A DNA stretch of 33,222 nucleotides. Origin: Phycisphaeraceae bacterium (GTDB lineage Bacteria; Planctomycetota; Phycisphaerae; Phycisphaerales; UBA1924). Numbering within the stretch: position 1 is the stretch's first letter; each line of letters begins with the position of its first letter. Positions 20,833 through 28,905 of this stretch are shown here, one piece after another. Under the pieces are notes generated by a model. The model ran no database searches. It saw only the letters and a program-made list of their open reading frames with translations, and was not told the DNA's origin. The position numbers were made by a program, and so were the translations under genes. The stretch spans positions 1-33,222 of the forward strand of contig BQJQ01000010.1 in assembly GCA_021604785.1 (NCBI GenBank), read 5' to 3'.

Positions 20833-20902
20833 GCCCGATATCGCGGGAATGACCGCCGCCCCGCGCGCGTTCCACACAGACCACACCCGAAGGAGATTCC
20901 CA

Positions 20903-21583
20903 ATGAAGACGTTCCGCACCTGCCTCACGCTGACCGCGCTCTCCGGGCTCGCATTCGCAGGCGCCGGGTTCGGCCCGGGCTCGTCCACCGGCCACGACGC
21001 CCAGCCCGCCGAGCCGACCGAGGCCGGCGAGCTCGCCCCGCGGACAGGGCTGCCCGTCGGGTACGACGCCCCGGACGCCGCCCTGTGGACCGACGAGGGC
21101 GAGAAGATCCAGCTCGCCGACCTGATCGAGAAAGCCGAGGGCCCGGTCGTGCTCGTCTTCTACCGCGGCGGGTGGTGCCCGTACTGCACCAAGCACCTCG
21201 CGGCACTCCAGAACAAGGTGGACGACCTCGAAGAGCTCGGCGCGACGCTGCTCGCGATCTCGCCCGAGTCGTACGACAAGCTCGCGGTCTCGGAAGAAAA
21301 GTCCGAGGCGGAGTTCACCCTGCTCTCGGATGGCGAGATGGAGGCGTCCAAGGCGTACAACCTCATCTTCGATGTGGACGACGACACCCAGGCACACTAC
21401 CGCAACTACGGCATCGAACTCGAGAACTGGAACGCGAACGAGGAGTGGAAGCTGCCCGTGCCGGCGGTCTTTGTCATCGACACCGAAGGTGTGATCCGCT
21501 GGGCGCACGCCGATGAGGATTACTCCAAGCGAATTTCGGGGCGCAAGATCGTCAAGGCGGTCGAGGAACTCGTGGAGGATTAA
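20903..21583 (+). CDS. exported peroxiredoxin-like (AhpC/TSA) protein
   Basis: A 226-residue thioredoxin-fold protein with a signal peptide (MKTFRTCLTLTALSGLAFAG). The active region is VVLVFYRGGWCPYCTKHLAA, with Cys92 and Cys95 in a CPYC arrangement. It is followed by LLAISPESYDKLAVSEEKS, FTLLSDGEMEASKAYNLIFD and a late PAVFVIDTEGVIRWAHADED. This pattern is that of AhpC/TSA peroxiredoxins and PRX-like two-cysteine proteins, which reduce peroxides or act as thiol oxidoreductases; export suggests a periplasmic role. AAGGAG lies 7 bases before the ATG. It follows hutU by 70 bases on the same strand and may be read from the hut promoter, but it has no known link to histidine breakdown. Its stop overlaps the stop of the convergent DUF2071 gene. 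Confidence 0.9.
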   Translation: MKTFRTCLTLTALSGLAFAGAGFGPGSSTGHDAQPAEPTEAGELAPRTGLPVGYDAPDAALWTDEGEKIQLADLIEKAEGPVVLVFYRGGWCPYCTKHLAALQNKVDDLEELGATLLAISPESYDKLAVSEEKSEAEFTLLSDGEMEASKAYNLIFDVDDDTQAHYRNYGIELENWNANEEWKLPVPAVFVIDTEGVIRWAHADEDYSKRISGRKIVKAVEELVED

Positions 21584-26563: not shown

Positions 26564-27040
26564 CTACCAGGGGCACGCGGGCTGACGCGGGCGCCACCGC
26601 GGGGCGTTCCATGCGGGGCGCGAGCGGGGCCCGTAGGGCCGGCGCACGGCGGGGCGAGCCGGCCGCTTGTACGGCTTGATGATCACGCAGTTGCCCGCGT
26701 ACCGCACGCTCGCGTTGAACGATCCGGCGTGCCAGGTAATGCTCGGGCTGCGGTACCGGCGCGAGGTGCGGACGCGGACCTCGCCGCGTTCGACCCATGC
26801 GTGGTAGCCGGCCCGCTCGAAGGCGTCGAGCATCTGGTTTTTGACGCCGCGTTCGGTGATGGTGTAGTAGTGGCGGCCGATCTGGAGCGTGCCGGCCTTG
26901 TGGATCTGCTGGTGGCGGACGGACGGGCCGCGCCGCGAGTTCCCGTACCCGGGACCCGCCGCGAGTGCCGGGGCGGAGACGGCCGAGATCGTGATGAGGG
27001 CGCAGACCAGCCGCGCCGCTTTGTTGGTCAAGCGTGCCAT
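26564..27040 (-). CDS. small basic secreted protein, function unknown
   Basis: A 158-residue exported protein not recognised by family. The signal peptide is MARLTNKAARLVCALITISA then VSAPALAA. The mature part has a compact region with GTLQIGRHYYTITERGVKNQ, MLDAFERAGYHAWVERGEVR and NASVRYAGNCVIIKPYK. It ends in a tail rich in Pro, Arg and Trp (RPARPAVRRPYGPRSRPAWN and onward, ending QPACPW). The predicted charge is strongly positive, which would suit binding to polysaccharide, nucleic acid or membrane. Two cysteines (in GNCVII and PACPW) could form a disulfide. A perfect AGGAGG lies 6 bases before the ATG, the strongest ribosome site in the window, hinting at high expression. It is monocistronic, with a hairpin downstream. 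Confidence 0.75.
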   Translation of the reverse strand: MARLTNKAARLVCALITISAVSAPALAAGPGYGNSRRGPSVRHQQIHKAGTLQIGRHYYTITERGVKNQMLDAFERAGYHAWVERGEVRVRTSRRYRSPSITWHAGSFNASVRYAGNCVIIKPYKRPARPAVRRPYGPRSRPAWNAPRWRPRQPACPW

Positions 27041-27128
27041 GTGGAACCTCCTGTTTGGGTCAGGGTTTGGGTGCCCCGTGCACGGGCTGGCCCGGCGTGT
27101 CCGGGCTCGGTGAGAGACCGCCGCGGGG

Positions 27129-27271
27129 TGAACGCGGCTGACGCCGATCCCAAGAAATGCGGGGAAGAATCCGGCTGCGGGTCCGTGAGGGGCGTTTACA
27201 CCGGGTTTGTCGCGGTTTCGACCGGGTTTGGGGAATCCGTGTCAGGGTGAGCCGCGTTCAACAGGTATACC
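27129..27271 (+). promoter_or_regulatory. repeat-bearing leader upstream of the TPR/sigma-like operon
   Basis: Two perfect copies of ACCGGGTTTG lie at 27200-27209 and 27221-27230, a 21-base period that puts them on the same face of the helix. They are enclosed by an 11-bp perfect inverted repeat, TGAACGCGGCT at 27129-27139 and AGCCGCGTTCA at 27250-27260. GGTATACC at 27264-27271 contains a TATACC that could be a -10 element, but no good -35 is correctly spaced. A regulator-binding site is inferred; nothing shows which protein binds. The rest of the 260-base gap (27041-27300) holds no gene. Confidence 0.45.
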
Positions 27272-27300: not shown

Positions 27301-28002
27301 ATGAACGCAGATCAGACCCAATCCGGCTCAGACGACCGCATGAGCGACACGACCCTCGTCACGGCGAGCACGCCCGGTGAGCTGTCCTCGCTCGAAGCCG
27401 CGATCATGGACGCCTGCAACGAGCTGCACGACGCCCGCGCCCAGCGCGACGCCGGGCGGACCGAGGCGATCCGCGTCAAGCTCTTCAAGCTCATCGACCG
27501 GTACGACGAGACCGACGGCGACAACCATCCCAACGCCGCCTGGGCCCGCCCGAACCAGCGGGCGTTGGCGCTGTCCGCCGCGGGCAGGATCAACCAGGCG
27601 ATCTCGGCAGAAGAGATTGCGTTGAAGTACGCCGACAACGACCGGCGCCGCGAGATCAGCCTCGACAACCTCGCCGACCGGTGCATCCGCGCCGGGCGGT
27701 ACGAGGAAGCGGTCAGCTACTTCCTGCAGGCCGTCGAGGTTGCGCCGAACAGCGTGCCGGTGCTGATGACCGGCGCGCAGGCGTTGTACTTCGCGGGGAT
27801 GACCGACGAAGCCGACGGGATCTTCGCGGCGCTCTTGGGCGACCCCGCCCAGCTCGACCCGCGCGGCCCGCTTGGGGCCTACTTGGACTGCGAGGAGCGG
27901 CTCTTCGCGATGGCCGACCGTCTGCCCTCGCTGCGGGCGCTGTACAAGGCGTGGTCACGCGTCAAGTCCGGGCTCAAGCCCGAGCTGGGGGGCGCGTCAT
28001 GA
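27301..28002 (+). CDS. TPR-type protein, partner of the sigma-like gene
   Basis: A 233-residue soluble protein. The N-terminal 90 residues are helical and polar (LEAAIMDACNELHDARAQRD, then RVKLFKLIDRYDETDG). The middle holds tetratricopeptide-like helix pairs: PNQRALALSAAGRINQAISA, DNLADRCIRAGRYEEAVSYF then LQAVEVAPNSVPVLMTGAQA, and LYFAGMTDEADGIFAALLGD. No signal peptide or membrane segment is seen, so it acts in the cytoplasm, probably as a protein-binding scaffold. AAGGAGG is 6 bases before the ATG at 27301. The stop overlaps the start of the sigma-like membrane gene by 4 bp, so the two products are made together and may interact. Biochemical function is unknown. Confidence 0.8.
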   Translation: MNADQTQSGSDDRMSDTTLVTASTPGELSSLEAAIMDACNELHDARAQRDAGRTEAIRVKLFKLIDRYDETDGDNHPNAAWARPNQRALALSAAGRINQAISAEEIALKYADNDRRREISLDNLADRCIRAGRYEEAVSYFLQAVEVAPNSVPVLMTGAQALYFAGMTDEADGIFAALLGDPAQLDPRGPLGAYLDCEERLFAMADRLPSLRALYKAWSRVKSGLKPELGGAS

Positions 28003-28838
28003 GACCCGACCAGCACGACACGTTCTGGCAGCTCTACGAGCGCGACGCGCGCGGTCCGTTGGACGCGGCCTGCCGCGGGGCCGTCCGGCGACTCTCCGAC
28101 TCGACCATGGACCCGGCGGACCTGATCGCTTGGGTGGACACCCGCGTCTGGACGATGCTCGAGAAGGGCGCGTACCCGACGTTCCACGACGACCCGACGC
28201 CCGAGCAGGCGATCCAGCGGATCGTGGACAACGCCGCGACGCTCTCTCGGTGGGCCTACCTCGGGCTCTCTCGCGGGCACTGGCGCCGCACCGAGCGTGA
28301 GCAGGCGCACATCGGAGGCATGTCGCGGGCCGAGCGCCTCGCGACGGTCTCGACCGTGGGCAATGGGTTCGAGCAGTCCGAGCAGCTCAAGGGTGACCTC
28401 GCCAAGGTCCGCGCGACGCTCTCGGACACACTCAAAGCGAAGATCGCGGCCTCGTGGCCCGAGAAGGACGAACGCCGCCAGGTCGCCCAGATCCTCGGCG
28501 CCACCCGGCCCGAAGACGACGAGTTGATCCACGCCGCCACGTCCGGCGAGATCAAGGAGAACACCGTGCAGCAGATGCGGTCCCGCACGCGCAAGCGACT
28601 CGCGGAGCTGTTCCAGAACGCCACCCCCCTGTTCGCACTCGTTGCCGTGCTCGCCATCGGGCTCGCGTCGGGCCAGGCGTACGCGGACGAGCAGTCCGGC
28701 GGCCGCGGCGGGCTCGCGGAGATGCGCTCCACCGACGCCGGCGACCTTGGCCCCATCAGCGGCGAGCAATCCGGCGGCCGCAAGGGCGGCAAGCAGATCT
28801 ATTCGCGTGGTGGCGAACAGTCCGGCGGACGCGGCTAA
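27999..28838 (+). CDS. sigma-70-like protein with C-terminal membrane segment and EQSGGR repeats
   Basis: A 279-residue protein with an unusual layout. Residues about 9-98 resemble sigma region 2 (FWQLYERDARGPLDAACRGA, MDPADLIAWVDTRVWTMLEK, AIQRIVDNAATLSRWAYLGL). Residues about 134-206 resemble region 4, with a helix-turn-helix split by an insertion: RRQVAQILGATRPEDDELIH then ENTVQQMRSRTRKRLAELF. Residues 209-229 form one hydrophobic segment (TPLFALVAVLAIGLASGQ) ending AYA-D, like a signal-peptidase site. The last 50 residues carry EQSGGR three times (231-236, 256-261, 273-278). The N-terminal part should face the cytoplasm and the tail the periplasm. The start at 27999 overlaps the TPR gene by 4 bp and fits conserved spacing. 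It could be a membrane-tethered transcription factor or a sigma-fold protein that no longer binds RNA polymerase. Similarity is distant. Confidence 0.7.
   Translation: MRPDQHDTFWQLYERDARGPLDAACRGAVRRLSDSTMDPADLIAWVDTRVWTMLEKGAYPTFHDDPTPEQAIQRIVDNAATLSRWAYLGLSRGHWRRTEREQAHIGGMSRAERLATVSTVGNGFEQSEQLKGDLAKVRATLSDTLKAKIAASWPEKDERRQVAQILGATRPEDDELIHAATSGEIKENTVQQMRSRTRKRLAELFQNATPLFALVAVLAIGLASGQAYADEQSGGRGGLAEMRSTDAGDLGPISGEQSGGRKGGKQIYSRGGEQSGGRG
28689..28832 (+). repeat. three EQSGGR-coding repeats in the tail of the sigma-like gene
   Basis: The hexapeptide EQSGGR is encoded at 28689-28706, 28764-28781 and 28815-28832, each followed by Gly or Lys-Gly-Gly. The codons differ at third positions (GAGCAGTCC, GAGCAATCC, GAACAGTCC), which indicates that the peptide rather than the DNA is kept. 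All copies lie beyond the membrane segment. Confidence 0.85.
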
Positions 28839-28865: not shown

Positions 28866-28895
28866 GCACCGACCCGCCGCCGGGTCGGTGCTTTT
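28866..28895 (+). terminator. Rho-independent terminator of the TPR/sigma-like operon
   Basis: GCACCGACCC (28866-28875) pairs perfectly with GGGTCGGTGC (28882-28891), with a 6-base loop and TTTT at 28892-28895. It is 27 bases past the stop of the sigma-like gene and just before the convergent pntB stop. Confidence 0.93.
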
Positions 28896-28905
28896 GTGCG
28901 CTGAG

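Follow-up and report, generated by a model that had tools for sequence, protein, structure and literature searches.

A putative self-tethered ECF-type sigma factor with an exported EQSGGR tail in a three-gene module of Phycisphaerales

Can a sigma factor act as its own membrane tether? When ECF sigma factors are controlled from the membrane, this is usually put down to anti-sigma proteins distinct from them, and the locus described here raises the question of whether regulator and sigma factor could be joined in one chain. The window analysed, 33,222 nucleotides long, spans an entire contig (G000:C10) from a draft genome. It holds a gene for a TPR-repeat cytoplasmic protein of 233 amino acids (27301..28002, plus strand), followed by a gene for a sigma-like protein of 279 amino acids with a C-terminal signal sequence and an EQSGGR tail (27999..28838, plus strand), which we call SIG and which is present as a single copy in the window's own genome. 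SIG starts at the ATG at 27999, and the two genes overlap by 4 bp. A Shine-Dalgarno sequence, AAGGAGGG, was read from the sequence 5' of the TPR gene, as was a G+C-rich, terminator-like hairpin with a T run 3' of the SIG gene (about 28866..28896, plus strand). These coordinates and signals bear out the preliminary description of the locus, made from its sequence alone, as two overlapping genes with a strong leader and a terminator. That description missed a divergent gene for a secreted protein, the conserved promoters and a putative envelope regulon.

The divergent gene (26564..27040, minus strand) was found by an iterated HMM search of minus-strand ORFs upstream of the TPR gene, and is present in 38 of 39 loci. 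It encodes a secreted protein of 158 amino acids, here named SecX, with an N-terminal signal peptide followed by a conserved domain, AGTLxIDG..AFRRAGYxA..P.VRW, that has no match in Pfam. Within one Phycisphaerales family, 32 of the 150 genomes searched have a SIG homologue, and these represent 12 of 74 genera; a class-wide sample of 298 genomes gave none beyond that family. A TPR homologue adjoins the SIG gene directly upstream in every genome that has SIG, which answers with a yes the earlier question of whether the TPR gene always accompanies the EQSGGR-tailed proteins. At the level of sequence, the locus is a three-gene module made of the SecX, TPR and SIG genes.

Other neighbours were considered as parts of the module and rejected. 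Upstream of it, between 20005 and 26413, the window carries hutU, a hutG-like gene, hutI, elbB and a gene for an NADPH-dependent reductase, in an order kept in about 20 of the 39 loci. A gene for an AhpC/TSA-type redoxin lies directly downstream of SIG in 16 loci, while its relative in the window sits inside the hut cluster (20849-21583). The hut cluster, elbB and the redoxin gene are syntenic in many loci and were not counted as parts of the module because they are missing next to it in others.

A diverged relative shows which parts of the module travel together. In genome G011 (L134:2420-4691) a minus-strand SecX gene, a TPR gene and a sigma-like gene stand in the same order as in the window, with E values of 9e-20 for the secreted protein and 2e-37 for the TPR protein. 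The sigma-like protein matches TIGR02950 (E 0.007), aligns at the profile level with P 4e-4, and has a C-terminal membrane segment and a tail, which does not contain EQSGGR. The module therefore occurs without the motif too, and the tail is not fixed. Independent variation of the TPR gene, membrane segment and tail had been named beforehand as an observation that would count against the proposal; in G011 the tail motif does vary in this way, and the relative retains the TPR gene together with the sigma domain and the membrane segment. A TGTCAC element was also seen 5' of this diverged module.

Whether SIG is a sigma factor was approached through its fold. AlphaFold was used to predict the structure of SIG, and the model is confident at residues 1-110 and about 131-205. 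Residues 1-107 (27999..28319, plus strand) form a domain that resembles sigma region 2 in structural alignment of the model. Residues 143-204 (28425..28610, plus strand) form a helix-turn-helix like that of region 4 with an extra helix in the turn, as delimited by profile alignment and by the model helices at 143-151, 156-166, 171-182 and 187-204. With VIA-align, model residues 3-103 aligned with the ECF factor RpoE (5uxx_C) over 84 residues with rmsd 2.9 and a Z of 7.5, which is the best value obtained and is modest for a helical protein. Sigma factors fill 15 of the top 16 rows (Z 7.5 to 5.2), with RpoE, SigH, SigL, sigma-E and AlgU as ECF members, and two-domain alignments span residues 1-219. 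When the SIG profile was aligned globally with a local ECF profile, built from 19 ECF ORFs of three genomes of the SIG host family, the two were colinear over 167 columns with a score of 20.0 and P 8e-4; the best of 60 column shuffles reached a score of 8.0, and the best P among them was 0.12.

Similarity at the level of single sequences is weak. The SIG family stays below the curated HMM cut-offs, with TIGR02937 sub-threshold in 3 of 32 members (best E 0.056) and Pfam sigma region 2 or 4 below cut-off in 1-2 of 32 (best E 0.092 for region 2 and 0.044 for region 4). Foldseek alone returned no match under E 0.001 for either the SIG or the TPR model. The ECF arrangement, in which region 2 and region 4 folds are joined by a linker with no region 3 between them, is thus seen in SIG at the level of fold and profile, but not at that of curated HMMs. 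The proposal that SIG joins region 2- and region 4-like sequence, for which structure prediction had been suggested as the check, is supported by the model, by VIA-align and by the profile alignment. Based on these comparisons, we take SIG to be a divergent ECF-type sigma factor, which would bind core RNA polymerase and direct promoter-specific transcription.

A promoter of the kind that an ECF factor would read lies in front of the operon. In the window it has the form TGTCAG-N17-AGGTA (27240..27267, plus strand), and the family consensus is TGTCAG-N16/17-CGGTW. Twenty of the 39 loci have this strict consensus 5' of the operon, where shuffled sequence gives 0.025 on average; the remaining loci have near matches that keep the spacer of 16-17 bp, and the spacer is 16 in 30 of the 39 loci. 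A second promoter-like element, CGTCAG-N17-CGGTC, faces the SecX gene (27116..27143, minus strand), and most loci have similar elements at a distance of about 130-190 bp from the start of the TPR gene. The operon of SIG is thus preceded by a two-element promoter with a spacer of about 16-17 bp, as is typical of ECF factors, and SIG itself would be the protein that reads it. Another candidate for the window promoter, GGAATC-N17-CGTT, was rejected, as it is found in no close relative. In ten loci a second conserved element, either an inverted repeat like TTTTTGTT..AACAA or TTTTGTTAGTAAAYAGAAACTTTTTGC, was seen 5' of the TGTCAG promoter, and it is possibly an operator or a second promoter.

The promoters also bear on the idea that SIG has a sigma-derived fold but is no longer a sigma factor, serving for instance as a membrane-bound anti-sigma factor or scaffold while another ECF factor reads the promoters. 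The weak sequence similarity and the extra helix in the region 4 turn would fit such a role, and there is no shortage of other readers: each of the three genomes checked encodes 16-31 further ECF factors, and these promoters might be read by any of them. Against this, the promoter footprint tracks the presence of the SIG gene, and the element or a near match to it stands 5' of the SIG operon in the 39 loci. Its -10 part also varies in step with the sigma gene's clade: in the distant clade g56 the operon has CGGA in place of CGGT in all five loci, and for three of the five the best divergent element has CGGA too. We consider the loss of sigma function very unlikely, and SIG very probably a working sigma factor for envelope genes.

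Targets of SIG were sought by looking for the promoter element elsewhere in the genomes. Raw genome-wide matches were rejected as a definition of the regulon, being mostly chance by an N15 control: the N16 motif occurred 30 times and the N15 control 32 times in the same 13 genomes, and six of the 30 are the operon itself. The regulon is therefore small or the motif incomplete, and the targets kept are those where the element recurs before orthologous genes. It stands 5' of a glycine-zipper lipoprotein gene in 13 of 16 genomes with SIG and in 1 of 14 without (p 5.6e-5; background 7 of 600 windows), 5' of the oppABCDF operon in 12 of 20 and 0 of 10 (p 0.0016; with a stricter score 11 of 20 and 1 of 10, p 0.024), and 5' of a DUF4097-like lipoprotein gene in 5 of 15 and 0 of 15 (p 0.042, suggestive only), where all p values are guides, since the related genomes make them overstate the evidence and the targets were chosen after the scan. 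The window's own genome has the glycine-zipper gene with its element at G000:C42:12925, and the oppABCDF operon was complete where inspected. An envelope regulon linked to SIG is likely, because the element precedes the glycine-zipper lipoprotein gene and oppABCDF mainly in genomes that have SIG. Two further groups of genes were seen behind the same promoter element: histidine-rich small lipoproteins in two genera, and secreted low-complexity proteins rich in arginine and glutamine in three genomes, including that of the window.

The unusual part of SIG is what follows the sigma domains. Residues 211-229 (28629..28685, plus strand) form a hydrophobic segment with the features of a Sec signal sequence, which ends in AYA and is followed by D. 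Behind it comes a predicted exported tail of 50 amino acids (28686..28835, plus strand) with three copies of EQSGGR, at residues 231-236 (28689..28706), 256-261 (28764..28781) and 273-278 (28815..28832), all on the plus strand. The tail is modelled as disordered and with low confidence, with pLDDT below 50 for most of residues 221-273. The single membrane segment, the 50-residue tail and the three repeats were all located where the preliminary description had placed them, and its extracytoplasmic tail agrees with the positive-inside rule, which puts the tail outside. We hold that location to be very likely.

One to three copies of the motif are present in all 31 SIG homologues whose sequence runs through the tail, and 61 of the 64 copies read EQ[ST]GGR, with variable spacers between them. 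These copies have 52 different DNA encodings; selection therefore acts on the protein, and by this measure the conservation of the tail is far beyond chance. No EQSGGR-tailed proteins of other families were found in a pattern search of 150 genomes, and EQSGGR was in no paper of the literature searched. The idea that it is a genome-wide tag was rejected, as elsewhere in the 150 genomes GEQ[ST]GGR occurs only in KdsA and in scattered, apparently chance ORFs. In many Phycisphaerales (15 loci) KdsA contains G.GEQTGGR within a conserved stretch of the enzyme; that this matches the heptapeptide of the tail is evidently a coincidence.

The membrane segment is conserved in its layout as well. Basic residues, a hydrophobic core of 12 amino acids and a (-3,-1) signal-peptidase site follow one another in all 31 homologues, the site having the A-X-A form in 21 of them, and in most the first EQ[ST]GGR comes directly behind it. 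The layout is that of a Sec signal sequence which follows a cytoplasmic domain of 200 residues. The preliminary description took the tail for an outside sensor that stays attached, so that signal binding would call in a dedicated protease and release the sigma part. Its outside location and conserved motif stand, and the co-conserved SecX could be the ligand or gate of such a sensor. Two features speak against permanent attachment: in every homologue the core is short and a (-3,-1) site is present, as in cleavable signal sequences, and the predicted disorder of the tail fits a peptide more readily than a sensor domain. The tail may therefore be removed and exported instead of staying in place. 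Given this layout in all 31 homologues, we rate release of the tail by cleavage no less likely than a permanently attached sensor. A tail that stays attached as a sensor seems unlikely to us, and removal by signal peptidase fairly probable, judging from the conserved site. That this cut is also the regulated activation step is possible, with somewhat more doubt than confidence.

If the tail is released, the TPR protein might be what reads it. The TPR protein has Pfam TPR_2 and TPR_19 repeats above cut-off, and its AlphaFold model (pLDDT 88.8, pTM 0.83) resembles many peptide-binding TPR structures, among them RapH (3q15, Z 13.4), Rap-pLS20 (6t46, Z 13.2) and PlcR-PapR (2qfc, Z 12.8), with matches to unrelated peptide binders that are equally good. 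Outside the Pfam repeats, residues 18-43 form a strongly conserved N-terminus, T[IL]VT..ELSPIEAAIMDxCN.LHEAR. Four conserved polar residues, R116, S120, N123 and R127, lie along one helix face between residues 116 and 127 and could line a binding groove.

A rival reading is an exported-peptide loop of the Rap-Phr or PlcR-PapR type. Signal peptidase would free the tail, further processing would yield EQSGGR peptides, and these would re-enter the cell through Opp and bind the TPR protein, which would then control the sigma factor; the cell would in this way read its own export and import capacity. The TPR gene does lie directly upstream of the gene for the exported repeat peptide, often overlapping it, as in RRNPP pairs, and the motif is short and repeated with variable spacers. 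The signal-peptidase site in all 31 homologues, the resemblance of the TPR model to RapH, Rap-pLS20 and PlcR-PapR, and an oppABCDF operon that has the same promoter type and is itself in the putative regulon would all be expected of such a loop. Yet EQ[ST]GGR is near-invariant over 12 genera, where pheromones diverge; the unrelated peptide binders match the TPR model just as well; SBP_bac_5 proteins carry many ligands; the RRNPP systems studied so far are all in Gram-positive bacteria; and SecX is left without a role. We regard this loop as unlikely. The link to Opp and the RRNPP-like gene order leave rather slim room for peptide re-import. The strongest form is more doubtful still: a single chain that is both sigma factor and precursor of an exported repeat peptide, cut so that the sigma factor stays tethered and an EQSGGR peptide is set free, to be re-imported through the sigma-controlled Opp and read by the TPR partner.

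The best explanation, which we hold with about even confidence, is an autoregulated three-gene module for envelope signalling, built around an ECF-type sigma factor that anchors itself in the membrane. The two sigma regions of SIG, 2 and 4, would lie in the cytoplasm, with the C-terminal Sec signal sequence in the inner membrane and the EQSGGR tail outside. The site-1 protease would probably be signal peptidase I, acting at the conserved AxA-type site, after which an intramembrane protease would free the sigma part. The TPR protein would sit on the cytoplasmic side as an inhibitor or adaptor, and SecX is the best candidate for binding the tail and gating its cleavage; the two are thus probably the cytoplasmic and the outer regulator. 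Once freed, the sigma part would take RNA polymerase to the TGTCAG-N16/17-CGGTW promoters of its own operon, the SecX gene, the glycine-zipper lipoprotein gene, the oligopeptide ABC transporter operon and genes for other exported proteins. Sequence comparison shows the architecture, topology signals, co-conservation and promoter footprints of this module; that SIG binds RNA polymerase, is cleaved and is set free, and what the TPR protein and SecX do, we infer.

SIG apparently carries its own export signal and a strongly conserved secreted repeat peptide, within a fixed three-gene module that has a readable promoter and putative targets. Little is known of envelope stress signalling in Planctomycetes, and the module offers a testable mechanism there. 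It raises the questions of which function the tail has outside, whether a sigma factor can be a direct substrate of signal peptidase, and whether signalling by peptide re-import occurs in the phylum. If the re-import reading were true, the cell would time its envelope regulon by its own export and import cycle, and an RRNPP-like circuit would exist outside Gram-positive bacteria, with regulator and signal made from one chain. No description of a sigma factor with a C-terminal signal sequence was found in a literature search that did not extend to the main ECF reclassification and the Planctomycetes ECF surveys, where an earlier one may exist.

Among known systems, ECF41 and ECF42 are like SIG in that an ECF sigma factor has a C-terminal extension proposed to control it. 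The ECF41 promoter, TGTCACA-N16-CGTC (PMC3426412), is close to the TGTCAG-N16/17-CGGTW of the SIG operon. The extensions of these groups are soluble domains in the same chain, SnoaL-like in ECF41 and TPR in ECF42 (PMC8103513), whereas that of SIG is a signal sequence with exported repeats and the TPR protein is separate. SIG does not belong to ECF41, which is defined by a SnoaL-like C-terminal domain and COE target genes, as its C-terminus has no Pfam domain and its neighbours are different genes; nor does it belong to ECF42, where the TPR lies in the sigma polypeptide, as its TPR is encoded by a separate, overlapping gene.

In RRNPP systems short peptides are exported, re-imported by Opp and bound by TPR domains (PMC4873490). 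As in Rap-Phr and PlcR-PapR, a TPR gene is followed here by the gene for an exported short-peptide precursor, with Opp in the putative circuit, and the two genes adjoin in all genomes with SIG. The module differs in the atypical fusion of the precursor to a sigma domain, in a motif that is near-invariant, and in a host that is not Gram-positive.

RsiV and RsiP share with SIG a membrane segment with a signal-peptidase site, which may be where regulated proteolysis makes its first cut (site 1) to set a sigma factor free, and in all 31 SIG homologues this site lies at the outer end of the segment. For the anti-sigma factor RsiP, signal peptidase is the demonstrated site-1 protease (PMC8844934). 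The substrate there is the anti-sigma factor, while in SIG the sigma factor itself carries the segment. Sigma-E with RseA resembles the module as an ECF sigma factor over envelope proteins whose release is expected to proceed by proteolysis; in our locus no separate membrane anti-sigma factor was seen, and regulator and sigma factor are apparently one chain. This self-tethered arrangement, with its putative release step and putative roles for both partners, would be a new form of ECF signalling.
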